Shown piece by piece: positions 5,078 through 20,316 of a stretch of 36,131 bases of DNA. The position numbers were made by a program, and so were the translations under genes. The DNA is from Streptomyces griseus (GTDB taxonomy: Bacteria > Actinomycetota > Actinomycetes > Streptomycetales > Streptomycetaceae), in the NCBI GenBank assembly GCA_002154345.1, contig MUNB01000049.1, positions 1-36,131 of the forward strand, given 5' to 3'. Numbering within the stretch: the first letter of the stretch is position 1; every line of letters starts with the position of its first letter. The notes under the pieces were generated by a model. It was not told the DNA's origin. It was given only the letters and a program-made list of their open reading frames with translations, and did no database searches.

Positions 5078-5089
5078 GCGCGGGCCTTC

Positions 5090-5104
5090 GGGGGCTCCGC
5101 CCCC
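5090..5104. terminator. GC hairpin in a Streptomyces-type intergenic repeat
   Basis: GGGGGC-TCC-GCCCCC forms a perfect 6-bp stem between two convergent genes. It is followed by CCTC...GAGG at 5116-5131. The whole stretch (about 5085-5137) resembles short palindromic repeats found in many Streptomyces intergenic regions, and may end both transcripts. Confidence 0.55.
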
Positions 5105-5135
5105 GGACCCCCGCTCCTCAATCGCCGGAGGGGCT

Positions 5136-5828: not shown

Positions 5829-6014
5829 GAGGGCGAACCTACCCGGGCGCCCCGCCGAAAGGGAGACGGCTTCCGGCTTCGCCCCATAACGCCGGGGGAG
5901 GGGGGTGAACGGGATCTCCTGCGCCGGGTGTCACCGCCGCTACGGTTTCGGCAATTCCCTGGTCCGGACCAACCCCCGCCGGACCCGGACACCCCCTGAA
6001 CCAAGGAGAGTTAC

Positions 6015-7196
6015 GTGGAGAGAACCACGCTCCGCAGACGCGCCCTCGTCGCCGGCACCGCCACGGTGGCCGTGGGCGCGCTCGCCCTCGCCGGGCTGAC
6101 CGGTGTGGCGTCCGCCGGCCCCGCGGGCACCACCGCAGCGCCGGTCTCCGCCGACAGCCTGTCGCCCGGACTGCTGGCCGCCATGGAGCGCGACCTCGGT
6201 CTGGACGCGGACGACGCGCGCGGCCGGATAGCCAACGAGTACCGCGCCGCCGCCGTCGCCGCCGGTCTGGAGAAGTCCCTCGGCGCCAGCTACGCCGGAG
6301 CCCGGGTCAGCGGTGCGAAGGCGGCCCTGACCGTCGCCACCACCGACGCCTCCCAGACCGCCCGGATCACCGAGGCCGGGGCGAAGGCCGAGGTCGTCGG
6401 CCACAGCCTGGACCGGCTCGAAGGCGTCAAGGAGGCCCTCGACAGGGCCGCGCTGCGCAAGGCTCCGAAGGACGTGCCCGTCTGGTACGTCGACGTCGAG
6501 GCCAACCGGGTCGTCGTGAACGCCGCGAGCACCGCGGCCGGAGCGGCGTTCCTCAGGACCGCCGGGGTCGACAGCGGCCCGGTCACCGTCGCCCGGTCCG
6601 CCGAACAGCCGCGCGCCCTCGCGGACCTGCGGGGCGGCGACGCGTACTACATGAACGGCTCCGGCCGCTGTTCCATCGGCTTCCCGGTGAAGCGCGGCAC
6701 CCAGAACGGCTTCGCCACGGCGGGCCACTGCGGGCGGGTCGGCACCACCACCAACGGCTTCAACCAGCAGGCCCAGGGCACCTTCCAGGGCTCCACCTTC
6801 CCCGGCCGCGACTACGCCTGGGTCGCCACCAACGCCAACTGGACCCCGCGTCCGCTGGTCAACGGCTACGGGCGGGGCGACGTCACCGTCGCCGGATCCA
6901 CCGCGTCCGTCGTCGGCGCCTCGGTCTGCCGCTCCGGCTCCACCACGGGCTGGCACTGCGGCACCATCCAGCAGCTCAACACCAGCGTCACCTACCCGGA
7001 GGGCACCATCTCCGGCGTGACCCGCACCAGCGTCTGCGCCGAGGGCGGCGACTCCGGCGGCTCGTTCATCAGCGGCGACCAGGCCCAGGGCGTCACCTCC
7101 GGCGGCTGGGGCAACTGCAGCAGCGGCGGCGAGACCTGGTACCAGCCGATCAACGAGATCCTCAACCGGTACGGACTGAGGCTGCACACCGCGTGA
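6015..7196 (+). CDS. Streptogrisin C-like secreted serine protease (S1 family, prepro form)
   Basis: 393-aa pre-proprotein starting at GTG 6015 behind AAGGAGAG. Residues 1-34 are a signal peptide with an Arg-rich start (LRRRALVAG) and a VASAGP cleavage region. Residues about 40-202 form the long pro-region of the alpha-lytic protease type, which guides folding. The mature enzyme probably begins near ADLRGGDAYY (residue 203). The catalytic triad is His238 (TAGHCG), Asp266 (GRDYAWV) and Ser347 (GGDSGGS). Six cysteines (219, 239, 305, 315, 341, 368) can form the three expected disulfides. The catalytic domain is very close to my memory of S. griseus streptogrisin C, but the protein stops at RYGLRLHTA, so the Thr/Pro linker and chitin-binding domain of that enzyme are absent. 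An extracellular protein-degrading role is secure; the natural substrate is not. Confidence 0.92.
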   Translation: MERTTLRRRALVAGTATVAVGALALAGLTGVASAGPAGTTAAPVSADSLSPGLLAAMERDLGLDADDARGRIANEYRAAAVAAGLEKSLGASYAGARVSGAKAALTVATTDASQTARITEAGAKAEVVGHSLDRLEGVKEALDRAALRKAPKDVPVWYVDVEANRVVVNAASTAAGAAFLRTAGVDSGPVTVARSAEQPRALADLRGGDAYYMNGSGRCSIGFPVKRGTQNGFATAGHCGRVGTTTNGFNQQAQGTFQGSTFPGRDYAWVATNANWTPRPLVNGYGRGDVTVAGSTASVVGASVCRSGSTTGWHCGTIQQLNTSVTYPEGTISGVTRTSVCAEGGDSGGSFISGDQAQGVTSGGWGNCSSGGETWYQPINEILNRYGLRLHTA

Positions 7197-7265
7197 CCCG
7201 GGGGAGCCGTCCCGCCGTCCTCCCCGGCGGAGCGGGCCCCGGCGGTACGACGTAGGACCAGTGAG

Positions 7266-7289
7266 CGGCCCCGCCGGAGTGCGGGGCCG
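7266..7289 (+). terminator. Rho-independent terminator after the protease gene
   Basis: CGGCCCCGC and GCGGGGCCG form a perfect 9-bp stem with a 6-base loop, followed directly by a T-rich tail (TTTCCTTGTT). This is the most classical terminator in the window. Confidence 0.8.
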
Positions 7290-7379
7290 TTTCCTTGTTG
7301 CGCCAACACCCCTCGCGCAGCGCATCGTTCACAAGCTATTGACACCTTCTCAGCGTCGGCGCAACACTGGCACCGCCTT

Positions 7380-7393
7380 GGAGAGCGCTCTCC
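7380..7393. promoter_or_regulatory. LacI-family operator palindrome (copy 1)
   Basis: GGAGAGCGCTCTCC is a perfect 14-bp palindrome with the central CG step typical of LacI-family operators. It sits 36 bases after a TTGACA -35 box, where bound repressor would block initiation or early elongation toward the DUF1996 gene. The identical 14-mer occurs at 8706-8719 and 19506-19519. Confidence 0.8.
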
Positions 7394-7524
7394 CAGATGA
7401 TCCCGCGGTCCGCCGGCCTCGTGACGCGCAGGGTGGAGCCTCTTCCCAGTCGCACCGTCCAGCTCACCCTTTCCCCCCACCGTGCACCCGATGTGCAGGG
7501 ATGAAGAGCGGCATGGAGGTCCCT

Positions 7525-8640
7525 ATGGTGACAAGACTCAACAGAACGACCCTGGTGTCCGTCCTGATCGTGGCGGCCGCCCTGGCGCTGGTCGCGCTCG
7601 GGCTGACCGCGATCACGAACGCCGGGGCGGCCACCGCCGAGGCGGACGGGCCCGCGTCGGACCGGCCCGCGGCGGCCTCGCACGTCATGCAGGGTCACAA
7701 GATGGCGCCGGCGAAGCCCGTGGCCTTCGGCGACGACCCCGACGGCGACGGCTACATACCGGCGGACCCGCCGGTCACCGGCGTGGAGCCGTCCGACGAG
7801 ATCCCGCCGCACCGCTACTTCCACGAGTTCCAGGCCAACTGCTCGGTCACCCACACCGCCCCGGACGACCCGATCGTCTACCCCGGTCGGGCCGGCGCGT
7901 CGCACGACCACACGTTCATGGGCAACGACACCACGAACGCGAACAGCACCACCGCGTCCCTGGGCGCGGGCGGCACCGCGTGCCTGGCGCCCGGCGACCT
8001 GTCCGCGTACTGGATGCCGACCCTCTACAACGGCGACGAGGAGATCCGTCCGATCGGCCCCCAGACCATCTACTACAAGGCCGGAGTCACCGACTACCGC
8101 ACCGTGCGGCCCTTCCCCAAGGGGCTGCGGTTCGTCGTCGGCAGCCCCACGCAGACCGCCGAGGAGTTCCGCGACCACCCCGGCATGGTCGAGGGGTACG
8201 AGTGCGGCGAGAGCTACCACAACTACGACTTCCCGGCCGCCTGCCCGACCAGCCAGGACACCCAGCTCAACCTGCGTATGCAGGCGCCCAGTTGCTGGGA
8301 CGGGAAGTACCTGGACACCCCCGACCACAAGGCCCACATGGCCTACCCGGTCGTGATGGGGGCCAACCAGGACGTCTGCCCGCCGAGCCACCCGGTCGCC
8401 CTGCCGATGATCGAGTTCAAGATGGCGTGGCCGGTCAACGGTGACATGTCGCAGGTGAGACTGGCCAGCGGCACCGGCCACTCCTTCCACTACGACTTCT
8501 TCAACGCCTGGGACGACGCCACGCTCGATGCGCTGGTCGACCACTGCATCGTCGGCGCGCTCCAGTGCAACGCCCGTGGCTACGACGAGAACAACCCGGG
8601 CGAGGGGGCGGCCCTGGACGAGAACTACGAACTGCCCTGA
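7525..8640 (+). CDS. Secreted DUF1996 domain protein
   Basis: 371-aa exported protein. The start ATG 7525 is chosen because GGAGG lies 5 bases upstream; a longer in-frame extension to 7261 runs through the promoter and operator. Residues 1-40 hold one hydrophobic segment (LVSVLIVAAALALVALGLTAI) followed by Ala-rich sequence: a signal peptide or signal anchor. DUF1996 covers about residues 85-360, with the characteristic HRYFHEFQANCSV, DPIVYPG, GASHDHTFMGN and CWDGKYLDTPDH segments. Many His, Asp and Cys residues suggest metal or carbohydrate binding, but no function is established for the domain as I know it. It shares the LacI-type operator with the following glycoside hydrolase gene, which points to an extracellular polysaccharide context. 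Confidence 0.88.
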   Translation: MVTRLNRTTLVSVLIVAAALALVALGLTAITNAGAATAEADGPASDRPAAASHVMQGHKMAPAKPVAFGDDPDGDGYIPADPPVTGVEPSDEIPPHRYFHEFQANCSVTHTAPDDPIVYPGRAGASHDHTFMGNDTTNANSTTASLGAGGTACLAPGDLSAYWMPTLYNGDEEIRPIGPQTIYYKAGVTDYRTVRPFPKGLRFVVGSPTQTAEEFRDHPGMVEGYECGESYHNYDFPAACPTSQDTQLNLRMQAPSCWDGKYLDTPDHKAHMAYPVVMGANQDVCPPSHPVALPMIEFKMAWPVNGDMSQVRLASGTGHSFHYDFFNAWDDATLDALVDHCIVGALQCNARGYDENNPGEGAALDENYELP

Positions 8641-8675
8641 CCCCGGTCCCGGCCTCGACACCCCCGCCCGTCGCG

Positions 8676-8710
8676 TCTCCCTCCTGGGCGCACCGCGCCC
8701 AGGAGGGAGA
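8676..8710 (+). terminator. Long hairpin between the DUF1996 and glycoside hydrolase genes
   Basis: A perfect 16-bp inverted repeat (TCTCCCTCCTGGGCGC at 8676-8691, complement at 8695-8710) with a 3-base loop. Its 3' arm runs into the LacI-type palindrome at 8705-8720, so the two structures share GGGAGA. It should attenuate or end the DUF1996 transcript. Confidence 0.7.
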
Positions 8711-8720
8711 GCGCTCTCCC
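8705..8720. promoter_or_regulatory. LacI-family operator palindrome (copy 2)
   Basis: GGGAGAGCGCTCTCCC is a perfect 16-bp palindrome containing the same 14-bp core as the other two copies. It lies 60 bases before the glycoside hydrolase start codon. Confidence 0.8.
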
Positions 8721-8779
8721 ATGCGTGCCCGTTCCTTCGGCCGTCTCCACCCGCACTCCCGTGAGGAGCCCTTCCCCCC

Positions 8780-10546
8780 ATGATCACGTCCCGTTTCCGA
8801 CGACCGGCCCGTTCCCGGGGCCGTACCACCGCGCGGCTCGCCGTCGCCGCGCTCCTGGCCGCCGCGGCGGCCGCCCTTCCGGTGCCCACCGCCCAGGCCG
8901 CGGGCAGTGTGGTGAAGGTGACCGGCTCCCAGGGCGCCTGGCAGCTGACCGTGGACGGCGCCCCGTACACCGTGAAGGGGCTGACCTGGGGTCCGTCCGT
9001 CGCGGACGCCGGGCAGTACATGCCCGACGTGAAGTCGATGGGCGTCAACACGATCCGTACGTGGGGCACCGACGCCACCACGAAGCCGCTTCTGGACACC
9101 GCGGCATCCCACGGCATCAAGGTGATCGCCGGGTTCTGGCTGCAGCCGGGCGGCGGCCCCGGCAGCGGCGGCTGTGTGAACTACCTGACGGACACCGCCT
9201 ACAAGAACGACATGCTCGCCGAGTTCCCGAAGTGGGTGGAGACCTACAAGGACCATGAGGGCGTCCTCATGTGGAACGTCGGCAACGAATCCGTGCTCGG
9301 CCTGCAGAACTGCTACAGCGGCGACGAACTGGAGCAGCAGCGCGACGCGTACACCACCTTCGTCAACGAGATCGCCGAGAAGATCCACGCGGTCGACCCG
9401 AACCACCCGGTCACCTCGACCGACGCCTGGACCGGGGCCTGGCCGTACTACAAGAAGAACGCGCCCGCTCTCGACCTGTACGCGGTGAACTCCTACGAGG
9501 CCGTCTGCGACATCCGCGCCACCTGGGAGAGCGGCGGCTACGACAAGCCCTACATCGTCACCGAGGGCGGGCCCGCCGGTGAGTGGGAGGTGCCGGACGA
9601 CGCCAACGGCATACCGGACGAGCCCACCGACGTGGCGAAGGCGGAGGGGTACCAGAGCGCCTGGGACTGCGTCCAGGGGCACCCCGGAGTGTCGCTCGGG
9701 GCGACGCTCTTCCACTACGGCACCGAGTACGACTTCGGCGGCGTCTGGTTCAACCTGCTCCCCGCGGGCCAGAAGCGGCTCTCCTACTACGCGGTGAAGG
9801 AGGCGTACGGCGCGGACACCTCCGGCGACAACACCCCGCCGGTCATCAGCGGCATGACCGTCGACAACGCCTCCGCCGTCGAGGCGGGCAAGCCGTTCAC
9901 CCTCAGGGCGTCCGTCTCCGACCCGGACGGCGACGCGCTCACCCACCAGGTGCTGGTCAACTCCAAGTACATCGACGACAGCGGCCAGTTGACGGACGCG
10001 GACTTCACCGACCGGGGTGACGGCACCTTCGAGGTCACCGCGCCGGACCGGCTCGGCGTCTGGAAGGTCTACCTCAAGTCGACCGACGGGAAGGGCAACG
10101 TCGGGATCGAGACGAAGTCCTTCAAGGTGGTCCCGCCGCAGGTCGGCGGGGTGAACCTGGCATCCGGCAAGCCCGCCGAGGCCTCGTCCTTCCAGCCGGA
10201 CAGCGTCGGCTGCCCCTGCCCGGCGGCCAACGCCGTCGACGGATCCTTCGACACCCGCTGGGCCAGCGAATGGGCCGACCAGCAGTGGATCCAGGTCGAC
10301 CTGGGGGCGACCGCCTCCTTCGACCACGTCCAGCTGGCCTGGGAGGCGGCGTACGCCAAGGCGTACACGATCCAGACCTCGGACAACGGCCAGGACTGGA
10401 ACACCGTCCACACGGAGACGGCCGGCAACGGCGGCATCGACGACATCGAGGTCGCGGGCAACGCCCGCTACGTCCGGGTGAACGCCACCGAGCGCGGCAC
10501 CCCGTGGGGCTACTCGCTCTACGAGTTCGGCGTCTACCGGAGCTGA
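8780..10546 (+). CDS. Secreted retaining glycoside hydrolase (TIM barrel) with Ig-like and F5/8-type C (CBM32-like) domains
   Basis: 588-aa exported enzyme. A signal peptide (residues 1-41, ending PTAQAAG) is followed by a GH2/GH5-like TIM barrel at about 45-345. The acid/base candidate is Glu170 in WNVGNES and the nucleophile candidate is Glu262 in YIVTEGG, on strands 4 and 7 as in clan A retaining enzymes. Residues 353-452 look like an Ig-like module (PPVISGMTV, SVSDPDGDALTH). Residues 456-588 are a discoidin/F5-8C domain (NLASGKPAEASS, NAVDGSFDTRWAS, WIQVDLG, ARYVRVNATERG), usually carbohydrate-binding. The substrate is unknown; beta-glucan, mannan or galactan are all possible. GAGGAG upstream of ATG 8780 is somewhat far (about 12 bases). 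It is preceded by a LacI-type operator and a terminator hairpin. Confidence 0.85.
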   Translation: MITSRFRRPARSRGRTTARLAVAALLAAAAAALPVPTAQAAGSVVKVTGSQGAWQLTVDGAPYTVKGLTWGPSVADAGQYMPDVKSMGVNTIRTWGTDATTKPLLDTAASHGIKVIAGFWLQPGGGPGSGGCVNYLTDTAYKNDMLAEFPKWVETYKDHEGVLMWNVGNESVLGLQNCYSGDELEQQRDAYTTFVNEIAEKIHAVDPNHPVTSTDAWTGAWPYYKKNAPALDLYAVNSYEAVCDIRATWESGGYDKPYIVTEGGPAGEWEVPDDANGIPDEPTDVAKAEGYQSAWDCVQGHPGVSLGATLFHYGTEYDFGGVWFNLLPAGQKRLSYYAVKEAYGADTSGDNTPPVISGMTVDNASAVEAGKPFTLRASVSDPDGDALTHQVLVNSKYIDDSGQLTDADFTDRGDGTFEVTAPDRLGVWKVYLKSTDGKGNVGIETKSFKVVPPQVGGVNLASGKPAEASSFQPDSVGCPCPAANAVDGSFDTRWASEWADQQWIQVDLGATASFDHVQLAWEAAYAKAYTIQTSDNGQDWNTVHTETAGNGGIDDIEVAGNARYVRVNATERGTPWGYSLYEFGVYRS

Positions 10547-10603
10547 TCCGGCGGGGCCGGGAAGGCCTCCGCGCCGTCCCATCCCCGCTGTCGGCGCGGC
10601 GGG

Positions 10604-10643
10604 AGCCCGCGGCGGCCACGGACATCCGTGGCCGCCGCGGGCT
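10604..10643. terminator. Strong hairpin after the glycoside hydrolase gene
   Basis: A perfect 18-bp inverted repeat (AGCCCGCGGCGGCCACGG at 10604-10621 and its complement at 10626-10643) encloses a 4-base loop. It lies 58 bases after the stop codon and before the next same-strand gene, so it insulates the two. Confidence 0.75.
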
Positions 10644-10684
10644 CGTCACGTCGTTCCCGGGCGATGCGGGGTAGCGTCTTCGGC

Positions 10685-11452
10685 ATGGACTTTGGAACCA
10701 CCGTTGAGCGCGCTCAACGCCTCAAGCAACTGCACGCCGACCACAAGCCGCTGGTGCTGCCCACCGTCTGGGACGTCTGGTCCGCCCGGACCGCGGTCGC
10801 CGCGGGCTTCCCCGCGCTGACCATCGGCAGCCACCCCCTCGCCGACTCCCGGGGGGCCGAGGATCAGGAGGGCCAGACCTTCGAGGAGGTGCTCGCCGCC
10901 GTCAGGCCGATCATCGCGGCGGTCGACGTCCCCGTCTCCGTGGACCTGGAGTCGGGCTACGGGAAGCAGCCTGCGGAGCTCGTCGCCGGTCTGATCGAGG
11001 CCGGCGGTGTCGGCCTCAACATCGAGGACACCGTCCACTCCGAGGGCGGACGCGTGCGCAGCACGCAGGAGCACGCGAGCTACGTCGCGGGTCTGCGCGC
11101 GGCGGCCGACGACGCGGGCGTCCCGGTCTGGGTCAACGGCCGCACCGACCTCTTCGCGCACGCGGAGAAGCCCTCCGACGTCCTCGACGAGGTGATCGAG
11201 CGGCTGCGGGCCCTGGAACAGGCGGGCGCCGACAGCGTCTACCCGGTGAAGATCCAGGACAACGACGAACTGCTCGCGGCGGTGACCGCGGCCGTCGCCG
11301 TCCCGGTGAACACCACGGCGCATCCCGTGAAGCACGACCTGGAGCGCTTCCGCCGCCTCGGTATCGGCCGCATCACCTACGGTCCGCTGCTGCAGTTCGC
11401 GCTGACGGACGCGGTGAAAGACATGCTGAAGCCGTGGGCGCCCTCCTCCTAG
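10685..11452 (+). CDS. Isocitrate lyase/PEP mutase superfamily enzyme
   Basis: 255-aa cytosolic enzyme of the PEP mutase/isocitrate lyase (ICL) family. Visible family motifs are PTVWDVWSARTAVAAGFPALTIGSH near the N-terminus, SVDLESGYG (metal-binding Asp and Glu), VGLNIED (metal-ligand Glu and Asp) and VWVNGRTDLF. Members cleave or rearrange C-C or P-C bonds in 2-hydroxy acids or phosphonates; this short single-domain type lacks the KKCGH active-site cysteine loop of true isocitrate lyase as far as I can see, so the reaction is undetermined. The start ATG 10685 is preferred over an in-frame ATG at 10628, which lies inside the terminator hairpin. A perfect 16-bp palindrome lies within codons 7-12. 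Confidence 0.82.
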   Translation: MDFGTTVERAQRLKQLHADHKPLVLPTVWDVWSARTAVAAGFPALTIGSHPLADSRGAEDQEGQTFEEVLAAVRPIIAAVDVPVSVDLESGYGKQPAELVAGLIEAGGVGLNIEDTVHSEGGRVRSTQEHASYVAGLRAAADDAGVPVWVNGRTDLFAHAEKPSDVLDEVIERLRALEQAGADSVYPVKIQDNDELLAAVTAAVAVPVNTTAHPVKHDLERFRRLGIGRITYGPLLQFALTDAVKDMLKPWAPSS

Positions 11453-11473
11453 AGGCGGCCCGGCGATGCGAAA

Positions 11474-11515
11474 AGCCCTCCGGCCGCGGCGAGAGTACGC
11501 CGCGGCCGGAGGGCT
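11474..11515. terminator. Bidirectional hairpin between convergent genes
   Basis: A perfect 18-bp inverted repeat (AGCCCTCCGGCCGCGGCG at 11474-11491, complement at 11498-11515) with a 6-base loop, preceded by AAA on the left. It separates the PEP-mutase-like gene from the convergent beta-glucosidase operon and can end both. Confidence 0.8.
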
Positions 11516-11542
11516 GCCGGGAGGAGCAGGGGAGAAGCGGGA

Positions 11543-12928
11543 TCAGGCGGCCGTCCGCCCGTCCCGGCGTTCCGTGTGCTCCCGGACCAGCTCCGCGTAC
11601 CGGAGCCCGCTGCTCTTGACCGTGCGGCGCTGGGTCGCGTAGTCCACGTGGACCAGCCCGAACCGCTTGTCGTAGCCGTACGCCCACTCGAAGTTGTCCA
11701 TCAGGGACCAGGCGAAGTACCCGGCCAGCGGAGCGCCCTTGGCGACCGCGCGGGCGCAGGCGGCGAGGTGCTCCTCCAGATAGCGGACGCGCTCGGGGTC
11801 GTGCACCGAACCGTCCGCCGCGACGACGTCCTCGTACGCCGAACCGTTCTCGGTGACGAAGATCCGCTCGACGCCGTACTCCTCGGTCAGCCGCAGCAAC
11901 AGCTGCTCCAGGCCCTCCGCGTGGACCTCCCAGTCCATGTGGGTGAGCCGGGCGCCGGGGACGGAGACCTGCCTGGCCCGGGGCGCGGTGCCGTCGGGGT
12001 CGGCGGTGACGATCTGGCGGAAGTAGTAGTTCAGCCCGAGCCAGTCCAGTGGGGCCGCGATCGTCTCCAAGTCGCCTGGTTGGACGGGGAGTTCGACGCC
12101 GTACTCCTCGACCATGTCCTGCGGGTAGCCTCGTCCCAGGATCGGGTCCAGCCACCAGCGGTTGATGTGGCCGTCGGCGCGCCGGGCGGCGGCGAGGTCG
12201 GCCTCGCTCCCGCTCGCCGGCTCGATCGGGCTGAGGTTGTTGACGATGCCGACCCGGGCGTCCGAGGAGGCCGCCCGGATCGCCTGGACGGCGAGACCGT
12301 GGCCCAGGTGCAGGTGGTAGGAGGCGCGCACGGCGGCGGTCAGGTCGGTGAGGCCCGGTGCCATCCGGCCCTCCAGATGGCCGATCCACGCCGAGCACAG
12401 CGGCTCGTTGAGCGTCGCCCAGTCCTTGACCCGGTCACCGAGCCGCTCCACCACGTGCGCGGCGTAAGCGGCGAAGTGCTCCGAGGTCTCCCGTACGGTC
12501 CAGCCGCCCCGGTCCTGGAGCGCCTGCGGCAGGTCCCAGTGGTACAGCGTGGCGAACGGAGTGACGCCCGCCTCCAGCAGGCCGTCCACCAGCCGGTCGT
12601 AGAAGTCCAGGCCCGCCTTGTTGACCGGTCCGTCGCCGCCGGGCACGACGCGCGGCCAGGCGATGGAGAACCGGTACGCGTCCGCGCCGAGCCGCTTGAT
12701 CAGGCCGATGTCCTCGGGGACCCGGTGGTAGTGGTCGCAGGCCACGTCACCCGTGTCGCCGCCGTCGACCTTGCCGGGGGTGTGCGAGAACGTGTCCCAG
12801 ATCGAGGGGGAGCGGCCGTCCTCGGTCACGGCCCCCTCGATCTGGTACGCGGCGGTGGCGACTCCCCAGGTGAAGTCCGCCGGGAGTGCGGTGAGGTCGG
12901 ACACGAACTGCCTTTCTGTGGAGGTCAC
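11543..12928 (-). CDS. GH1 beta-glucosidase
   Basis: 461-aa cytosolic glycoside hydrolase family 1 enzyme. It starts [15 protein letters not shown], then has [11 protein letters not shown], the acid/base motif TLNEP (Glu175), the nucleophile motif VTENG (Glu360) and the aglycone-region [15 protein letters not shown]. There is no signal peptide, so it hydrolyses imported cellobiose-like beta-glucosides inside the cell. The start is GTG 12928, overlapping the upstream permease stop by four bases (GTGA), which indicates coupled translation; a much longer in-frame extension runs through the permease and is not real. It is last in the binding protein-permease-permease-glucosidase operon, the same gene order as the Streptomyces ceb cluster (cebEFG-bglC), though here the neighbouring regulator is ROK, not LacI-type CebR. 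Confidence 0.95.
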
Positions 12929-13818
12929 TTGACGGCTCCTGCGGTCAGACCGGCGACCAGGTAGCGCTGGAGGAGCAGGAACCCGACGACGATCGGGACG
13001 CTGACGACGAGCGAGGCGGCCATGACCTGGTTCCAGTACACGTCGTTCTGCGTGGCGTAGCCCTGGAGACCGACGGAGAGGGTCCGGGTCGCGTCGTTCG
13101 TCATGACGGACGCGAAGAGCACTTCGCCCCAGGCCGTCATGAAGGAGTAGACGGAGACCGCGACGATGCCCGGCACGGCGGCCGGCACGACGACCTGGAA
13201 GAGCGCGCGGACCGGCCCGCAGCCGTCCACCAGGGCCGCCTCGTCGAGGTCGCGGGGGATGGAGTCGAAGTAGCCGATCAGCATCCAGATCGAGAACGGC
13301 AGCGAGAACGTGAGGTACGTCAGGATGAGGCCGCCGCGCGAGCCGTACAGGGCCACGCCGGTGCTGTTGCCGATGTTGACGAAGATGAGGAACAGCGGCA
13401 GCAGGAAGAGGATCCCCGGGAACATCTGCGTGGACAGCACCGTGACGGTGAAGACCCGCTTGCCCCGGAACCGGTAGCGGCTCACCGCGTACGCCGAGAA
13501 CACCGCGATCGTCACCGACAGCACGGTCGCCGAACCCGCCACGATCAGCGAGTTGACGAAGTACTTGGCGAGCGGGACGGTCTCCCAGATGTCGAAGTAC
13601 GGCCGGATCGTCAGCGTGGACGGAATCCACTGGAACTTCCCCGACACGTCCTGGAGCGGCTTCAGCGAGCTGCTGACCATCACATAGACCGGCAGCAGGA
13701 CGAAGCCGGCGAGCAGGGTCAGGACGATGCGCCGGGTCCAGAGGAAGGACTGCGGCGCGGCCATCGGCGAGCGGGCCCGCGACCGGGTGGTGCGGGTCGG
13801 CCGCGTGAGGCTAGACAT
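12925..13818 (-). CDS. ABC sugar transporter permease (MalG/CebG type)
   Basis: 297-aa inner-membrane permease with about six hydrophobic segments. The family-defining EAA loop is [21 protein letters not shown] at about residues 195-215, the site where the ATPase docks. It overlaps the upstream permease by eight bases and the beta-glucosidase by four, so all three are translated as a unit. It imports the sugar delivered by the binding protein at 14836-16146. No ATPase gene is in the operon; the shared multi-sugar ATPase MsiK is the likely partner in Streptomyces. Confidence 0.93.
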
Positions 13819-14824
13819 CGGCGCCCTTCCTTCCGCGCGAGGTGAAGAACAGATAGACGGCCGTCACGACCAGCAGGAAGAGCAGCAGCAGGACCGACAT
13901 CGCGGATCCGGTGCCGAAGTTCCAGGTGACGAACGACGACTGGTAGATGTGGATCGAGATCAGGTCCGCGCTCTCCGGCGCCGACTTCCCGAACAGGACG
14001 TACGGCGTGTTGAAGTCGTTGAACGTCCACAGGAAGAGCACGAGGACCAGCACCTGGTTGACCGGGCGCAGCGAGGGGAGGGTGATCCGGCGGATCTGCT
14101 GCCAGATGCCCGCGCCGTCGATCGAGGCGGCCTCGTACAGCTCGCGCGGGATGTTCTGGAGCCCGGCCATCAGCATCAGGAAGGCGAACGGCCAGCCCTT
14201 CCACACCGAGACGATGATCAGGGTGTAGATGCTGTTGTCGCCGATCAGCCAGAACGACGGCTCGTCGGTGATGCCGAGTTGGTCGTGCAGCACGTGGTTG
14301 ATCAGCCCGTTGTCCCGCTGGAACATGAACGCCCAGGTGATGACGGCCGCGTAGACCGGCAGCGCGTACGGCACGAGGAAGATCGCCCGCAGGACGCCCC
14401 GGCCCCGGAAGCTCTCCTGGAGGAGGATCGCCGCCGCGGTGCCCAGCAGCCAGGCGAACCCGACCGAGAAGAACGTGAAGACGCAGGTCACGAAGAACGA
14501 GTGGAGCAGGGCCTCGCCGATCGGCGCGTCGAAGTCGACGGCGATCCGGTAGTTGTCGAGGCCGGTCCAGGGGGCAGCACCCCAGTTGTTGATGAAGAAC
14601 TGGGTGAGCTGACGGAAGCTCATCACGATCCCGATGACCATCGGGACGATGTGGATGAGCAGTTCCAGCAGGACGGCGGGCAGCAGCAGGAGATAGGGCA
14701 GTCCGCCTTGGCGGATCCGGTCGGGGATGCGCGGCAGTCTCCTGCGCGCACCCCCGGTGCCCCGGCTCGTACCCGCATCGGTCGACTTGTCGACCTCGGG
14801 GTCCGTGGTGACGGTGGCGGTCAT
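13811..14824 (-). CDS. ABC sugar transporter permease (MalF/CebF type)
   Basis: 337-aa membrane permease. A roughly 40-residue polar N-terminus (MTATVTTDPEVDKSTDAG) precedes the first transmembrane span (LPYLLLLPAVLLELLIHIV). Its EAA loop is YEAASIDGAGIWQQIRRITLP. It lies 11 bases after the binding protein gene and overlaps the second permease, as expected for the first-listed of a permease pair. Confidence 0.93.
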   Translation of the reverse strand: MTATVTTDPEVDKSTDAGTSRGTGGARRRLPRIPDRIRQGGLPYLLLLPAVLLELLIHIVPMVIGIVMSFRQLTQFFINNWGAAPWTGLDNYRIAVDFDAPIGEALLHSFFVTCVFTFFSVGFAWLLGTAAAILLQESFRGRGVLRAIFLVPYALPVYAAVITWAFMFQRDNGLINHVLHDQLGITDEPSFWLIGDNSIYTLIIVSVWKGWPFAFLMLMAGLQNIPRELYEAASIDGAGIWQQIRRITLPSLRPVNQVLVLVLFLWTFNDFNTPYVLFGKSAPESADLISIHIYQSSFVTWNFGTGSAMSVLLLLFLLVVTAVYLFFTSRGRKGADV

Positions 14825-14835
14825 GGATCAGGGCC

Positions 14836-16146
14836 TCACTGCTGCATCGTCTGCTGGGCCTTTTCCAGGCGCGCCTTGACGGATTCGTCGGTGACGGGAC
14901 GACCGGCCGCCGCGTCCGCCCACAGCTCCTTGACCGCCGTGCCCACGGCCGTCTCGAACTGCGACTCGTTCGGGACCTGGGGGAGCGGGGCGGCGCTGGT
15001 GGCGAGGGTGTCGCGGAGGACCTTGAGGTCGGGGGCCCCGAAGGCGGCATCGGCCTGTGCGGCCTTGACCGGAGGGATCGAGCCGTAGGTCTTGTTGAGC
15101 AGCTTCTGCTCGGCGTCGCTCGTCATGAACTTCACGAACTTCTTCGCGCCGTCGATGTTCTTGGTGTTCTTGAAGACGGCCATGTTGATGCCCGCGACCA
15201 TGGAGTTGGTCTGCTTGCCCGCACCCGGTACGCCCGAGGGGACCGGCACCGGGGCCGCGCCCCAGTCCTCCGGCTTCATGCCCTGGGCGGCGAAGGTGGA
15301 GGCGGCGGCCTGCCACAGCACCATGGCGGTCTTGCCCTTGGCGAAGTCGGTGAGCGACTGGTTCTGGGCGTACTCCGCGTTGCCCGGAGCGATGATCTTG
15401 TCCTTGGCCATGAAGTCGATGTACTGCTTCACCGCCGCGACCGCACCGTCCGAGGTGAAGGTCGCCTTGCCGTCCTTGTCGAAGAAGTCGGCGCCGTGCT
15501 GCTGGCCCAGGACGAAGGTCTGGTGGATGTTGTTGGAGAGGTTGCCGCCCTCGGCGCCAAGCCCCCACTTGCCGTCCTTGGATATCTTCTTGCCGGTCGC
15601 GACCAGCTCGTCCCAGGTGGCCGGGGGCTTCTCGACGCCCGCCTCGGCGAACATCTTCTTGTTGTAGTAGAGGGCGTACGCCAGGGAGTACAGCGGCACG
15701 GCTGCGGGCGGCTCGCCCTCCTTGCCGGCCGAGGCGACCGCCGAGTCGACGAAGCGGTCCCGGCCGCCGATCGCCTCGAAGTTCTTGTCGTCCCACGGCA
15801 GGAGCGCGCCGGTCGCCTGGAGCGAGGCCGACCAGGTGTTGCCGATGTTCAGCACGTCCGGGCCCTGACCGGAGCTGGTGGCGGCGAGGATGCGGTTCAG
15901 CAGGTCGGCCCACGGCACGACCTCCAGCTTCACCTTGATCCCGGTCTCCTTCTCGAACTTCTTCAGCTCGGGAGTGAGGATCTCCTTGTCGGCCTCGATG
16001 CTGGGGCCCTGGTTGGACGCCCAGTAGGTGAGGGTCTTCGGCGACTCGTTGCTGCCGCCCGAGGTCGTCCCGCCGCCACAGCCGGTGGCGGCTACGGCGA
16101 TGGCGAGGGCGAGGGAGACGGCGCTTGCGGCTCTGACATGACGCAT
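14836..16146 (-). CDS. ABC sugar-binding lipoprotein for the beta-glucoside importer
   Basis: 436-aa extracellular solute-binding protein, family 1. The start ATG 16146 (MRHVRAASAV) has AGGGG upstream; an in-frame ATG at 16200 would add 18 residues before the signal peptide and is not favoured. The signal peptide ends in a lipobox (AATGC, Cys at about 24), followed by a Gly/Ser-rich tether. Family segments include LKKFEKETGIKVKLEVVPWADLLNRI, GPDVLNIGNTWSASLQ, and GINMAVFKNTKNIDGAKKFVKFM. As first gene of the operon with two permeases and a GH1 beta-glucosidase, it probably binds cellobiose, gentiobiose or another beta-glucoside. Transcription starts in the 142-base divergent region shared with the ROK gene. 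Confidence 0.92.
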   Translation of the reverse strand: MRHVRAASAVSLALAIAVAATGCGGGTTSGGSNESPKTLTYWASNQGPSIEADKEILTPELKKFEKETGIKVKLEVVPWADLLNRILAATSSGQGPDVLNIGNTWSASLQATGALLPWDDKNFEAIGGRDRFVDSAVASAGKEGEPPAAVPLYSLAYALYYNKKMFAEAGVEKPPATWDELVATGKKISKDGKWGLGAEGGNLSNNIHQTFVLGQQHGADFFDKDGKATFTSDGAVAAVKQYIDFMAKDKIIAPGNAEYAQNQSLTDFAKGKTAMVLWQAAASTFAAQGMKPEDWGAAPVPVPSGVPGAGKQTNSMVAGINMAVFKNTKNIDGAKKFVKFMTSDAEQKLLNKTYGSIPPVKAAQADAAFGAPDLKVLRDTLATSAAPLPQVPNESQFETAVGTAVKELWADAAAGRPVTDESVKARLEKAQQTMQQ

Positions 16147-16202
16147 GTGAGGTGGCCCCTTTCCGGGGATGGCTGCGTTCGGGAACCGAACGGCCTCCAT
16201 GA

Positions 16203-16225
16203 CTTAATTTATGCCGTGATTTAAG
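16203..16225. promoter_or_regulatory. AT-rich dyad, candidate ROK operator
   Basis: A 23-bp imperfect inverted repeat with outer arms CTTAA and TTAAG (8 of 11 positions pair) stands out as AT-rich in a roughly 72% GC region. It lies between the divergent ROK regulator and transporter operon. ROK repressors such as NagC bind AT-rich dyads, so this is the best operator candidate. It could also contain promoter boxes. Confidence 0.55.
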
Positions 16226-16288
16226 AGGTGAGAGAAGGTCGCGTCAAGGCCTGGGACCGGGGTATGTTCCTGGACGGGAAGGAGCAAC

Positions 16289-17629
16289 ATGGCCGAGCGC
16301 AACAGACGGACCGTGCGTGACCTGCGACGGGGCAACCGGGCGAGGGTATTGCAACGGTTGTATTTCGACGGCCCGCTGAGCCGTCAGGAGCTCGGACCGG
16401 TCACGGGCCTGAGTTCAGGATCCATCAGCAACGTCGTCGCGGAACTCTCCGCCGAGGGCCTGCTGGAGGAGGCCGGCATCGTCGACTCCGACGGCGGCCG
16501 CCCGCGTACGCTGCTGCGCGTCGCCCCGGACGGCGGACTGCTCGTCGGCATCGACATCGGCGAGACCCGGGTCCGGGTCGAGCTGTTCGACCTCTCCCTG
16601 ACCGAACTGGCCCGCACCGAACGGCTGCTGGCCCAGCACGGTTACGACGTCGACCGCATCGTCGCCCATGTCCGCACCGGTGTCGCGGACGTGCTGCGCG
16701 ACGCGGGCGCCGATCCGCGACGGCTCCTCGGCATCGGCATCGGAGTACCCGGCATCATCGAGCGCGACGGGCCGGAGGGGCCCGACGGCACGCGCAGCGC
16801 GGTGGTGCACGGCCAGACCATCGGCTGGCGCGCGGTCCCCTTCGAGCAGCTGCTGCGCGAGGCGGTCGACGTGCCGCCCGAGGTGCCGCTCTTCATCGAC
16901 AACGGCGCCAAGACGCTGGGCCAGGCCGAGATGTGGTTCGGCGGCGGCCGGGGCGCGGGCGCCGCCGCCATCGCCCTCATCGGCTCGGGCGTCGGCGCCT
17001 GCGTCGACCACGGCGACATCCTCGACGAGGATCGCACCAGCCTCGCCCTCGAATGGGGCCACACCACCGTCCAGTTGCGCGGCCGACGGTGCCGCTGCGG
17101 CTCCATCGGCTGCCTGGAGGCGTACGCGGGCGCGGAGGCCCTGCGCGAGCGCTGGCGCGAGGCGGGCGGACCGCTGCCCGAGGACGCCGACGACGAGACC
17201 GCGCTGGCGGCCCTGCTCGCCGCCGCCTACCCGGCACGCCGGGGCGCCGCCCCGGACCCGGTGGCCCTCGCGCTGCTCGACGAGACGGCCGAATGCCTCG
17301 GCGCGGCCCTCGCCGATCTGATCAACCTCTTCCTGCCCGAGCGGATCCTGATCGGCGGCTGGGCGGGCCTGCTCATCGGCCCCCGGCTGCTGCCCGAGAT
17401 CCGCCGGTACGCGAACGAGTACGCCCTGCGCCACGCGGCGGCCCGCACCACCATCGAGATGGGGCGCCTCGGCCCGGACGCGGTCACCGTGGGCGCGGCC
17501 ACGCTGCCGCTCGCCGACTTCCTCACCCGGGGCGGCAGCCGCCCGGCGACCGGCGTCACCGGCACACCGCCGCGTACGGCGGCCCAGGCGGTCCGGGAAC
17601 GCCACCGCACGTCGACATCGACGACCTGA
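16289..17629 (+). CDS. ROK-family transcriptional regulator
   Basis: 446-aa protein with an N-terminal winged helix-turn-helix (about residues 10-75: ARVLQRLYFDGPLSRQELGPVTGLSSGSISNVVAELSAEGLL) and a C-terminal ROK sugar-kinase-like domain. The latter has a GIDIGETRVRVE loop, an EWGH motif, and the zinc-binding CRCGSIGCLE. AAGGAG lies 5-10 bases before ATG 16289. It is divergent from the beta-glucoside transporter/glucosidase operon, so it most likely controls that operon in response to a sugar. Retained kinase motifs mean some sugar phosphorylation cannot be excluded, but the DNA-binding domain makes regulation the main call. Confidence 0.92.
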   Translation: MAERNRRTVRDLRRGNRARVLQRLYFDGPLSRQELGPVTGLSSGSISNVVAELSAEGLLEEAGIVDSDGGRPRTLLRVAPDGGLLVGIDIGETRVRVELFDLSLTELARTERLLAQHGYDVDRIVAHVRTGVADVLRDAGADPRRLLGIGIGVPGIIERDGPEGPDGTRSAVVHGQTIGWRAVPFEQLLREAVDVPPEVPLFIDNGAKTLGQAEMWFGGGRGAGAAAIALIGSGVGACVDHGDILDEDRTSLALEWGHTTVQLRGRRCRCGSIGCLEAYAGAEALRERWREAGGPLPEDADDETALAALLAAAYPARRGAAPDPVALALLDETAECLGAALADLINLFLPERILIGGWAGLLIGPRLLPEIRRYANEYALRHAAARTTIEMGRLGPDAVTVGAATLPLADFLTRGGSRPATGVTGTPPRTAAQAVRERHRTSTSTT

Positions 17630-17890
17630 GCGTGAGCGGGCGCGGAAGGCTCCGGGGCCGGCGGGTCCGTCGTCGGCCGCCCCGCGGCCCGCGCCACCGC
17701 CTCCTGGCTACCGCCCCGCGCTGCCCGGTGCGACCCAGCGCGGGTCCACCCGTCCCAGCCACGCGTCCTGGGCGTCGTCCGGCGGGCGCTCCGGCGGAAG
17801 CGGCGCGAACCGGCAGGCGAACCGCGTCCCCGCGTCGCCCCGGCGCCCTCGGGCTCTGTCCGGCGGACGAGGCGGCATAGGGTCCGGGGC

Positions 17891-18235
17891 ATGCACAGCA
17901 CCCTGACCGAGCACGCGCGTTGTCTCTACGGTGACGAGAACCGGCCCACGCCGGAGTGCGGCCGCGAACACCGGGAGCACTACTTCGTCGAGGAGCTGAC
18001 CTTCGCGGACGCGGACGCGATCCTCGGCATGCTGCACGAGCTGTGCCCGCACGTGGTCGACGGCCTGCTGCCGGTCTGGGTGCGCAACCTCGCCTATCGG
18101 CTGGTGCTTCTGCAACGACCGGACGAACCGGCGCTGATGCGGGAGGCCGCCGAGAACCTGTGGCTGCACGGCCCGGACTGGGACGACATCGCGGCAGAAC
18201 TGACGAGGCGGGCGGACGCGCTGGGAACGGGCTGA
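17891..18235 (+). CDS. Small conserved-looking hypothetical protein
   Basis: 114-aa protein starting MHSTLTEHARCLYGD. It is rich in Glu, His and Leu, with two Cys near the N-terminus (Cys11, Cys23) and a third at 52, and mostly helical C-terminal segments (MREAAENLWLHG, DIAAELTRRADALG). There is no signal peptide or membrane span. I do not recognise a family. Good third-position GC bias and a plausible start support it as real. The 260 bases before it hold no other gene. Confidence 0.6.
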   Translation: MHSTLTEHARCLYGDENRPTPECGREHREHYFVEELTFADADAILGMLHELCPHVVDGLLPVWVRNLAYRLVLLQRPDEPALMREAAENLWLHGPDWDDIAAELTRRADALGTG

Positions 18236-18309
18236 TCGGGAGGGCGACTCCGGCGTGTCCCGGGCAGCCGCCCCGCCGGACCGGTCCCCTCCGGGCGACG
18301 GCGGGAATG

Positions 18310-18384
18310 TGACGACAGGCCCTAGGGCCTGTCGTCAAACCGCCATCTGCCGGGCGACGACGGCAGTTTGACGACAGACCCTAG
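18310..18384. mobile_element. 55-bp MITE-like inverted-repeat element between CTAG copies, plus a partial outward copy
   Basis: Between CTAG at 18322-18325 and CTAG at 18381-18384 lies a 55-bp element whose 19-bp ends (GGCCTGTCGTCAAACCGCC and the complement of GGCAGTTTGACGACAGACC) match at 17 of 19 positions. Left of the first CTAG, bases 18310-18321 are a mirror copy of the same end, so 18310-18337 is a perfect 28-bp palindrome centred on CTAG. The element cannot encode a transposase. Its ends resemble those of the IS5-type element at 35190-36087. It separates two convergent genes and can fold as a strong hairpin, so it may also act as a terminator. Confidence 0.75.
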
Positions 18385-19484
18385 GCCGACCCCCGCACCA
18401 CCAGCTCCGGTTCGAAGATCACGGAGGTGACCGGCCCGTCCGGCCGGGCCAGCCGGTCCAGCAGCAGGCGCGTCATCTCGGCGGCCATCCCCTCCACCGG
18501 CTGCCGGACCGTGGTCAGCGGCGGGCGGCAGGCCAGGGCGGCGCTGCTGTCGTCGAAGCCCACCACCGCCACGTCCCCCGGCACCGAGCGGCCGTGCTCG
18601 CGCAGGACATGGCAGGCCCCCAGAGCCATCAGGTCGTTGGCGGCGAACACCCCGTCCAGGTCGGGGTGTTCCGCCAGCAGCCGTTCCATCGCCGCCTCGC
18701 CGCTCTCCTGGGTGAACTGTCCCTCGGCGGTGGGGACGTACGGGTGCCCGTGGCGCGCCATGGTGTCCCGGAAGCCGGTCAACCGGGCCTGGCCCGCCGG
18801 TACGTCCAGCGGGCCGCTGATTGTCGCGATCCGGCGGCAGCCCCGGCCCAGGAGGTGCTCGGCCGCCAGCCGCGCGCCGTCCTGGTGCGCGAGGTCGACA
18901 TAGCTGACCGGGACCGGCCGCGCCGGGCGCGCGTACAGGACGGCCGCCAGACCGGCGTCCGCGATCAGGGCGGGCAGCGGGTCCTCGGCGTGCGTCGAGA
19001 CGACCAGGGCCCCGTCCGCACTGCCCTGCCGCAGGTACGCCACCACCTCCTCGCGCGCCCGTGAGGTCTCCGCGAACATCAGCACCGGGTGCATCCCGCG
19101 CGGACGCAGGTAGTTGACCACCCCGGTCACCACCCGGCCGAAGAACGGGTCCGCGAACACCTGCGCGGTGAACGACCCCGCATCGCCGGTCCCGTCCCTC
19201 CCGGCGGCCCCGGCGTCGGAGTCCTCCTCGGCCGCCGCTGGCTCGACGCCCGCGCCCGACACCACCAGGGCTACGGCGTCGGCCCGCCGGGTGACCAGGG
19301 ACCTGGCCGCCCGGTTCGGGGTGTAGCCCGTCACGGAGACCGCGTGCCGCACGGCCTCCTGGATCACCGGGTCGACATTGCGCACCCCGTTGATGACCCG
19401 CGAGACGGTGGCGCGCGAGACACCGGCCGCCCGCGCCACGTCCTCCAGGGTGGGTGCTCCGGCCGACCGCAGATCATCCGTCAT
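18381..19484 (-). CDS. LacI-family transcriptional regulator
   Basis: 367-aa regulator. The N-terminal helix-turn-helix TLEDVARAAGVSRATVSRVI (about residues 12-31) and hinge (GYTPNRAARSLV) are classic LacI family, followed by a periplasmic-binding-protein-like sensor domain (DPFFGRVVTGVVNYL, GVFAANDLMALGA, AVVGFDDSSAALACRPPLTTVRQP). It carries an Ala/Glu/Asp-rich insertion at about residues 75-100 between the first sensor strands (VEPAAAEEDSDAGAAGRDG). The operator-like palindrome 22 bases upstream suggests autoregulation, and identical sites lie before the DUF1996 and glycoside hydrolase genes. Its TAG stop lies inside the CTAG bordering the MITE-like element. Confidence 0.93.
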   Translation of the reverse strand: MTDDLRSAGAPTLEDVARAAGVSRATVSRVINGVRNVDPVIQEAVRHAVSVTGYTPNRAARSLVTRRADAVALVVSGAGVEPAAAEEDSDAGAAGRDGTGDAGSFTAQVFADPFFGRVVTGVVNYLRPRGMHPVLMFAETSRAREEVVAYLRQGSADGALVVSTHAEDPLPALIADAGLAAVLYARPARPVPVSYVDLAHQDGARLAAEHLLGRGCRRIATISGPLDVPAGQARLTGFRDTMARHGHPYVPTAEGQFTQESGEAAMERLLAEHPDLDGVFAANDLMALGACHVLREHGRSVPGDVAVVGFDDSSAALACRPPLTTVRQPVEGMAAEMTRLLLDRLARPDGPVTSVIFEPELVVRGSA

Positions 19485-19505
19485 GAGCGCCTTTATAGCA
19501 CCAAC

Positions 19506-19519
19506 GGAGAGCGCTCTCC
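19506..19519. promoter_or_regulatory. LacI-family operator palindrome (copy 3, upstream of the regulator gene)
   Basis: GGAGAGCGCTCTCC, identical to copies at 7380 and 8706. It lies 22-35 bases before the LacI-family gene start, fitting negative autoregulation. Confidence 0.8.
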
Positions 19520-19563
19520 ACGGTCGGCTGCCCGGTACTCCCGTGACGGACCTGCGTCACGTC

Positions 19564-20316
19564 TCAGGCCAGCGAGCCGCCCGTCGTGTCGATCCAGTGG
19601 CCCGTGATCCATCGGCCTTCGTCCGAGGCGAGGAAGGCCACCACGTCGGCGATGTCCGCCGGCGTACCGACCCTCCCCAGGGTGGACAGGGCGGCCGCGG
19701 CGGCCCAGGCCTCGTCGCTGGCGCGCAGCCGGTCCGTGGTGGAGTCGGTGTCCACGAGGCCCGGTGCCACCGCGTTGACCGTGATGCCCCGGTCGCCGAG
19801 CACCTTGGACAGATTCCGCGTGAACACGTCCACCGCGCCCTTGGTCATGGCGTAGGCGATCAGGTCCGGCATCATCGCCGCGTGGCTGAGGCCCGTCGAG
19901 ATGTTGATGACGCGTCCGCCGTCGCGCAGCCGGTCGAGGCCCGACTGCGTGAGGAAGAACGGCGCTTTGGTGTTGACCGTGAACAGCCGGTCGTACTCCT
20001 TCTCGTCGATCTCCGTGAAGTTGCGCGAGACGCCGATGCCCGCGTTGTTCACCAGAATGTCCAGGCCGTCCGCGCGCTGGTCGAAGGCGGCCCACAGCGC
20101 GGCGGCGGCCCCCGGGGCCCCCAGGTCCGCGCCGAGCGCGAAGGCCGTGCCGCCCGCCGTCCGGATGGCGGCCACGGTCTCCTCGGCCGCCGCCTCGTTG
20201 GTGCCGTAGTGCACGCCGACGACCGCTCCGTCCCGTCCCAGCCGTTCGGCTATCCCGCGTCCGATGCCCCTGCTGCCGCCGGTGACCAGTGCGGTCCTGC
20301 CCGTGAGTGAGCCCAT
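19564..20316 (-). CDS. Short-chain dehydrogenase/reductase
   Basis: 250-aa classical SDR. Motifs in order: TGGSRGIG (NAD(P)-binding, about residues 13-20), NNAG (about 90), a catalytic Ser in NISTGLS, and YAMTK (YxxxK) followed by a substrate loop (VAPGLVDTDSTTDRL). It ends with the family-typical ITGHWIDTTGGSLA. It is probably a 3-oxoacyl-ACP-reductase-like or secondary-alcohol oxidoreductase; the substrate is unknown. It is divergent from the TetR regulator gene, whose operator-like repeats lie between them, so it is probably the regulated target. Confidence 0.93.
   Translation of the reverse strand: MGSLTGRTALVTGGSRGIGRGIAERLGRDGAVVGVHYGTNEAAAEETVAAIRTAGGTAFALGADLGAPGAAAALWAAFDQRADGLDILVNNAGIGVSRNFTEIDEKEYDRLFTVNTKAPFFLTQSGLDRLRDGGRVINISTGLSHAAMMPDLIAYAMTKGAVDVFTRNLSKVLGDRGITVNAVAPGLVDTDSTTDRLRASDEAWAAAAALSTLGRVGTPADIADVVAFLASDEGRWITGHWIDTTGGSLA

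Follow-up and report, generated by a model that had tools for sequence, protein, structure and literature searches.

Three palindromes in the window

A 36,131-nucleotide stretch of Streptomyces griseus DNA (contig MUNB01000049.1, analyzed at its full length and called the window below) carries three identical copies of a 14-bp palindrome, GGAGAGCGCTCTCC, which we consider here as candidate operators of a small regulon. The first copy (O1, 7380..7393) precedes the gene of a DUF1996 protein of 371 amino acids, probably secreted to judge by eye from its N-terminus (7525..8640, forward strand). The second (O2, 8706..8719) lies between that gene and the gene of a GH158-like endo-beta-1,3-glucanase (GH, glycoside hydrolase) of 588 amino acids with a C-terminal carbohydrate-binding module (CBM) of family 32 (8780..10546, forward strand). 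The third (O3, 19506..19519) precedes a LacI-family regulator of 367 amino acids, LacI1 (18381..19484, reverse strand). The gaps between the sites and the start codons are 131 bases for DUF1996 (ATG at 7525), 60 bases for the glycoside hydrolase (ATG at 8780) and 21 bases for LacI1 (ATG at 19484).

A sequence-only reading of this stretch had reported three identical palindromes at these positions, each upstream of one of the three genes, and no other copy in the window. An exact search confirmed all of this, with the nuance that the middle site lacks promoter elements of the type found at the DUF1996 gene. When up to two mismatches were allowed, the window yielded one further match, at 20439-20452, within a TetR reading frame (20398-21009); shuffled controls gave a mean of 0.65 such matches and at most 3, so that none of 100 shuffles reached 4. 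That reading had also proposed a genome-wide search with one mismatch as a check. In the whole genome (7,819,863 bases in 846 contigs), GGAGAGCGCTCTCC has three exact copies, all in the window, and no unrelated ones, while the reversed pattern used as a control has none. Three copies differ at one position (C15:21902, C387:91 and C582:9938). The copy at C387:91 adjoins a reading frame with no Pfam match, and we treated it as a chance occurrence rather than as a regulon site.

The glycoside hydrolase has a signal-peptide-like N-terminus, as seen by eye. It matches the GH2 TIM barrel of Pfam weakly (E=3.4e-6) and, over residues 44-387, the PDB entry 9oro_A, named 'Glycoside hydrolase family 158' (E=6.5e-32). 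GH158 contains endo-beta(1,3)-glucanases, and in a Bacteroides member the acid/base Glu is preceded by Asn and accompanied by a second catalytic Glu (N136, E137 and E220; PMC7157763). The same arrangement is found in the window protein, where GNES aligns to GNES and VTEGGP to VTEFGP of 9oro, the roles of these residues being those suggested by the alignment. The C-terminal domain matches the glucanase/chitosanase modules 2rv9 and 4zxe as well as Pfam F5_F8_type_C, and is a CBM32. The window enzyme is, as predicted from these matches, a GH158-type endo-beta-1,3-glucanase with CBM32.

Conservation of the sites

We fetched 80 related loci (1.51 Mb) by similarity to the glycoside hydrolase, a sampling that favors loci having this gene. 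An exact site was present in 69 of them, and a one-mismatch site only in another four. Altogether GGAGAGCGCTCTCC occurs 110 times in the 80 loci, compared with a mean of 0.02 for 104 other palindromes permuted from its half-site. If a site is counted as being in front of a gene when the gene start, extrapolated from tblastn, lies within 450 bp, 107 of the 110 precede DUF1996, GH158, GH55, GH3, CBM32-headed or LacI genes, and three precede none of these. A second set was fetched with the palindrome itself, one locus from each of 29 other genomes among the matches listed, and 28 of these sites adjoin the same families. In distant relatives the gene order changes, and the sites remain with the same gene set.

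Per gene, with a limit of 500 bp upstream for DUF1996 and starts again extrapolated from tblastn, 48 of 70 DUF1996 genes carry an exact site and one a site with one mismatch. Eighteen of the 21 site-less DUF1996 genes belong to loci (L060-L086) in which DUF1996 lies downstream of GH158, and where a site is present there, it precedes the upstream genes. Control genes of the same loci gave no exact site in 159 cases (9 PEP [phosphoenolpyruvate] mutase, 39 permA, 35 solute-binding protein, 27 ROK, 6 S1 peptidase and 43 GH1 genes), the ROK genes having a single one-mismatch site. Chance recurrence was rejected on the basis of the permuted palindromes, the reversed-pattern controls and these control genes.

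The site was also followed beyond such loci. Among 150 Streptomyces genomes, it is present in 55 (123 copies, versus 3 for the reversed control), and a homologue of the regulator (E<=1e-70) in 60. Both occur together in 52 genomes, the site alone in 3, the regulator alone in 8 and neither in 87. The sequence-only reading had named loss of the sites in species keeping the regulator as a point that would speak against it; 52 of the 55 genomes with a site have the homologue and 87 of the 95 without a site lack it, the counter-examples being the eight regulator-only genomes. DUF1996 itself is present in 136 of the 150 genomes. For the co-occurrence table, DUF1996 genomes were picked by hand from these at about 152 bits or more, a choice that takes in a site-less subfamily (about 40-44% identity in the loci fetched). 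Across the family, 76 of 200 genomes and 7 of 17 genera have the site, with up to 14 copies per genome in one sister genus (reversed control: 4). In three genomes of this sister genus, we viewed 10 of 14, 8 of 10 and all 9 sites. Some of them adjoin GH158-CBM32 fusions, a LacI homologue, GH3 or a CBM32-GH16 protein, the best structural relatives of which carry the names glucanase or beta-1,3-glucanase. Others were seen before a GH92 or a CBM32 protein, inside a GH2-type reading frame or with no evident target.

Promoter layout and a hairpin at the middle site

Upstream of DUF1996, a predicted promoter (7339..7368, forward strand) consists of a -35 element TTGACA (7339-7344), an 18-bp spacer and a -10 element AACACT (7363-7368). 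Of 52 DUF1996 sites in relatives, 48 have a TTGACN hexamer, then a spacer of 16-19 bp and an xAxxxT hexamer whose end lies 4-16 bp upstream of the palindrome, a layout found in 0.09% of 20,000 random windows. The spacer is 17 or 18 bp in the commonest layouts, and the -10-like hexamer is mostly AACACT. Given this conserved position of the -10 element, the operator would span about +5 to +19 of the DUF1996 transcript predicted here. At LacI1, a predicted -10 element TATAAA (19492..19497, reverse strand) lies between the operator and the ATG, 7 nt from the latter, in a leaderless-like layout, and O3 overlaps the upstream part of this predicted promoter. The layout is also visible in close relatives with the site, several of which keep the same operator distance. 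The rows compared for both promoters were chosen for having an exact site. A sigma-70 consensus scan with strict thresholds reported no promoter in 7200-8800 or 19400-19600; the promoter claim rests on the hexamers conserved across relatives.

A perfect palindrome with a central CG, placed at a promoter, is what would be expected of a LacI-type operator. This is the situation at the DUF1996 and LacI1 sites, and the middle site has no recognizable promoter. Among 26 GH158 sites of the middle type, TTGAC lies within 55 bp upstream in just one, and in that locus GH158 is not placed after DUF1996. The middle site may nevertheless have some other kind of promoter. Downstream of DUF1996 we found instead a 16-bp RNA hairpin (8676..8710, forward strand), with a 3' arm that takes in the first five bases of O2. 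It shows covariation in 18 sequences, namely that of the window and those of 17 GH158-site loci out of 26; in the remaining nine, the sequence at this place is different. In this alignment 94.4% of the cells are paired, and 16 cells have changed on both sides (0 of 500 shuffles). The covariation score is 0.275; shuffles gave 0.166, and sliding the structure gave no more than 0.109. Five pairs have changes on both sides, and 29 of the 500 shuffles attained this number. When the stretch between DUF1996 and GH158 was folded as RNA, z was -3.99. In another group of eight loci, a different, T-rich hairpin-like sequence was seen by eye before the site. The missing DUF1996-type promoter and the abutting, covarying hairpin make the middle site look like an internal operator, and DUF1996 and GH158 look, on these alignments, like a single unit with an attenuating hairpin and an internal operator.

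Given that the middle copy belongs to a covarying hairpin, one might ask whether all three sites are structural elements of RNA or DNA, for example terminators, rather than operators. We regard this as highly improbable, since the distance from the conserved -35 and -10 elements to the DUF1996 copy downstream of them is fixed, and since pairing alone would not demand the conservation of the exact 14-mer seen at the DUF1996 genes. A terminator scan found none in 7200-8800 or 19400-19600; it needs a T-run and misses the middle hairpin too, and so counts as weak evidence.

Further sites in the same genome

With the shorter core GAGAGCGCTCTC, 13 sites were found genome-wide (control: 0), three of them being those of the window. 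Four others are near-identical to GGAGAGCGCTCTCC. On contig C15, AGAGAGCGCTCTCC and AGAGAGCGCTCTCT flank a TTGACA element before a second DUF1996 gene, further downstream of which, on the same strand, lies the gene of a second regulator, LacI2, 59% identical to LacI1. On C582, AGAGAGCGCTCTCC lies 70 bases upstream of a gene whose product, searched with its first 476 residues, matches 4pew and its relatives (E=8.9e-272). On C13, AGAGAGCGCTCTCT lies between two divergent genes, one for a CBM32 protein matching 4pew and the other for a CBM32-GH16 protein matching beta-1,3-glucanases. We take 4pew to be the GH55 laminarinase of Streptomyces sp. SirexAA-E. The near-identical sites thus appear to precede two GH55 genes, a GH16 beta-1,3-glucanase gene and a second DUF1996-LacI pair, which points to beta-1,3-glucan as the likely substrate, and the regulon would be larger than three genes. 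For SirexAA-E, a biochemically characterized GH55 laminarinase is mentioned, with a citation to a paper dealing with laminarin binding and the active site of GH55 (PMC12772271).

The C15 module (L176, G000:C15:14000-24355, 4985-7917) was seen to comprise the two operators around TTGACA, followed by the genes of DUF1996, of a small protein and of LacI2. The small protein has an HDMPGM motif and is presumably DUF305-like.

The remaining six core sites, on five contigs (C608, C88, C91, C245 and C438), have the form TGAGAGCGCTCTCA in five cases and CGAGAGCGCTCTCA in one, with T or C as first base and A as last base. Their neighbors are GH81 and a solute-binding protein (two sites, on a contig with another LacI gene), GH43, GH101, GH3-CBM11/GH1 and a protein with no Pfam match. 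These six sites probably belong to another regulator, and the pattern suggests a sister regulon set apart by the outermost bases of the palindrome.

Which regulator

LacI1 combines a LacI helix-turn-helix domain (Pfam LacI, E=4.2e-14) with a sensor of the sugar-binding type (Peripla_BP_3, E=2.3e-38). Among the 27 LacI-type helix-turn-helix domains of the genome, only those of LacI1 and LacI2 carry both SRATVSRVING and NRAARSLVTRR. Since it is LacI1 that has the exact site at its own promoter, we regard it as the best candidate. The identity of the recognition helices makes it likely that LacI1 and LacI2 share the palindrome, and LacI2, or both proteins, might then be what mainly occupies the three sites. 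LacI2 lies near a DUF1996 gene with two near-identical operators in its promoter region, and the second type of DUF1996 gene carries the exact 14-mer in some other genomes (L114, L119 and L139). In S. griseus, however, the exact GG...CC form sits at the LacI1 promoter and not at the LacI2 locus, and many genomes with an exact site have a single LacI homologue above threshold. On balance, we find it rather unlikely that LacI1 is not the sole or main regulator.

Two other LacI-type proteins, CebR and the LacI of contig C608, come into question because their sites share the GAGCGCTC core. The operator of CebR, TGGGAGCGCTCCCA, and the TGAGAGCGCTCTCA-type sites have the same center as the palindrome. 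However, a LacI-type gene on C344 has TGGGAGCGCTCCCA upstream, at its own promoter, for which reason we call it CebR-like, and its helix differs (GRGTASRVING); the helix of the C608 protein reads SRATASRVVNG, and the six remaining core sites have other outer bases and other gene neighbors. CebR was rejected as the regulator, TGGGAGCGCTCCCA differing from the palindrome at two bases per half-site and being carried by a separate CebR-like gene. That the palindrome belongs to CebR or to the C608 regulator is very improbable.

A probable beta-1,3-glucan regulon

We estimate at roughly 85% the probability that GGAGAGCGCTCTCC is the operator of LacI1, perhaps shared with LacI2, in a beta-1,3-glucan regulon with DUF1996 as a dedicated secreted part. 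The likely substrate (laminarin, callose or fungal cell wall) follows from the gene set, GH158-CBM32, GH55 and GH16, joined by GH3 in relatives. The sequence-only reading had proposed a small regulon of the regulator, a glycoside hydrolase and DUF1996, and a context for DUF1996 in polysaccharide use. Conservation, position and gene content support the former, and the GH158, GH55 and GH16 partners narrow the latter to a likely role with beta-1,3-glucan. It had further suggested that the regulator represses itself. The exact site at the LacI1 promoter agrees with this for S. griseus, but many regulator genes of relatives carry no site (13 of 30), and self-regulation by LacI does not appear to be universal.

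From the computed sites, conservation, promoter layout, gene families and co-occurrence, we infer binding, repression, an inducer and a role for DUF1996 as follows. When no inducer is present, the repressor would sit just downstream of the DUF1996 -10 element and over the upstream part of LacI1's own promoter, blocking initiation at both. The second operator, between DUF1996 and GH158, could add to the repression of GH158, acting either as a roadblock or through looping. The inducer may be a beta-1,3-gluco-oligosaccharide, which would be freed by low-level secreted glucanases and imported, and would release the repressor.

Several observations weigh against this model. Seven of the 80 loci have neither an exact nor a one-mismatch site; the contigs of three of these start no more than 33 bp from the GH match. 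An exact site of its own is present at GH158 in 26 of 74 cases, and one with one mismatch in a further case. Among the LacI genes of these loci, 17 of 45 carry an exact site and 10 a one-mismatch site, and among the best 30 of 80 LacI matches, 14 have an exact site, 3 a one-mismatch site and 13 none. In the Streptomyces survey, 8 of the 60 genomes with a LacI homologue lack the exact site and 3 of the 55 with the site lack a homologue at the threshold, and the co-occurrence is inflated by shared ancestry. At many of the sites viewed in the sister genus, no neighboring gene is evidently concerned with beta-1,3-glucan, and some sites fall within reading frames. Finally, a characterized GH55 laminarinase of SirexAA-E was found in the supernatant of a glucose culture (PMC12772271), which fits tight repression badly, if that gene belongs to the regulon.

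The DUF1996 protein

The DUF1996 protein matches PF09362 over the full profile (1-237 of 237; E=1.3e-49; 169.9 bits for a cut-off of 27). Fungal members carry the signatures HxH, DxSxYWxP and HxDxxxGW (PMC4738358). Their residues are found here and are invariant in 31 aligned rows (H78 and H80; D109, S111, Y113, W114 and P116; H273, D275 and W280), the Gly before the last signature Trp being mostly Ala in these proteins; the invariant residues also include H219 and H222. One locus (L099) with a stop within its coordinates was dropped from the alignment. A loose His/Met pattern at the N-terminus, written after viewing the sequences, is present in 21 of the 25 rows that include this stretch. In the window protein and in most aligned orthologues, a DPDGDGY stretch was also noted. 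We take it to resemble a calcium loop of the EF-hand or dockerin type.

The predicted structure, of which a single model was made, has a predicted local distance difference test score (pLDDT) of 86.6 and a predicted template modeling score (pTM) of 0.86; a Foldseek search of this model against the PDB gave no match at E<=0.001, the best being at 0.16. From the invariant histidines and the His/Met-rich N-terminus, one might guess that the protein binds metal. Fungal members are vacuolar, and their loss raised the sensitivity to stress and metal ions (PMC4738358). DUF1996 co-occurs with CBM and WSC domains, and a proteomics paper suggested a link to polysaccharide degradation (PMC7679414); a DUF1996-WSC sensor is described in a review (PMC9148135). 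In the literature naming DUF1996, no title concerned a streptomycete, and the passages and abstract concerned established no biochemical function.

A confidently predicted fold that matches no solved structure, the invariance of several histidines and an N-terminus rich in His and Met in most aligned orthologues lead us to a more far-reaching and tentative proposal, which we hold to be somewhat less probable than its negation: DUF1996 proteins would form a new secreted family active on beta-1,3-glucan, perhaps of metal-dependent enzymes, and LacI1 would also control the operon at an internal operator that has no promoter and is joined to a hairpin.

Relation to known systems

The kind of system, that is, the association of the palindrome with LacI, CBM32 and GH3 genes, is already known. 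In Streptosporangium roseum, the same 14-mer, GGAGAGCGCTCTCC, was reported in 2012 to precede neighboring genes, among them one for a LacI protein, two for CBM32 proteins and one for a GH3 protein, and also to lie upstream of a sugar ATP-binding cassette (ABC) transporter operon (PMC3377646). The likeness is thus an identical 14-mer beside LacI, CBM32 and GH3-type genes, and the difference is that the transport operon of the window has no palindrome. The passages on S. roseum mention neither DUF1996 nor GH158 and make no beta-1,3-glucan claim for this species. The same paper gives TGAGAGCGCTCTCA upstream of two Catenulispora GH16 genes, possibly endo-1,3-beta-glucanases (PMC3377646).

The actinobacterial cellulose regulons of CebR and CelR resemble the present one in having a LacI-family regulator, a 14-bp palindrome with the GAGCGCTC core and secreted glycoside hydrolases, but have another operator, TGGGAGCGCTCCCA (PMC4898821), another recognition helix and cellulose genes where beta-1,3-glucanases are found here. 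A known beta-1,3-glucan system has the families GH158, GH16 and GH3 in common with ours, but uses a hybrid two-component regulator and SusC/D homologues, and its relevant passages do not mention DUF1996. Searches on the core sequence, on LacI with laminarin or laminaribiose in Streptomyces and on LacI, GH55 and CebR, over mostly open-access literature and partial texts, found no description of the Streptomyces regulon. Within the literature searched, three points appear to be new: the membership of DUF1996, the assignment of the Streptomyces regulon to beta-1,3-glucan, and the arrangement of operator and hairpin.

Other features of the window

Between GH158 and LacI1 lies an operon of GH1, ABC permease and solute-binding protein genes (11543..16200, reverse strand), which carries no palindrome of its own, as the sequence-only reading had stated of this beta-glucoside operon. 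The transport operon was rejected as a member of the regulon, no exact site having been found upstream of permA (39), solute-binding protein (35) or GH1 (43) genes in relatives. Next to it lies the gene of a ROK-family protein (16289..17629, forward strand; Pfam ROK, E=7.5e-36), the probable regulator of the GH1/ABC transport operon. An AT-rich inverted repeat, CTTAATTTATGCCGTGATTTAAG, was seen by eye between the solute-binding protein and ROK genes (16202-16224) and is a candidate ROK operator. An Rfam scan of the window at gathering thresholds found no known RNA family.

Biological meaning

Beta-1,3-glucan is a main polymer of fungal cell walls, and DUF1996 is found in many Streptomyces and in fungi. 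The shared operators, together with a neighborhood that survives rearrangement, tie one DUF1996 subfamily to beta-1,3-glucan enzymes. This link is the useful part of the finding, in that it gives DUF1996 a specific candidate substrate, inducer and set of partners. The operator set predicts, moreover, which of its secreted enzymes Streptomyces might use jointly in attacking beta-1,3-glucan.

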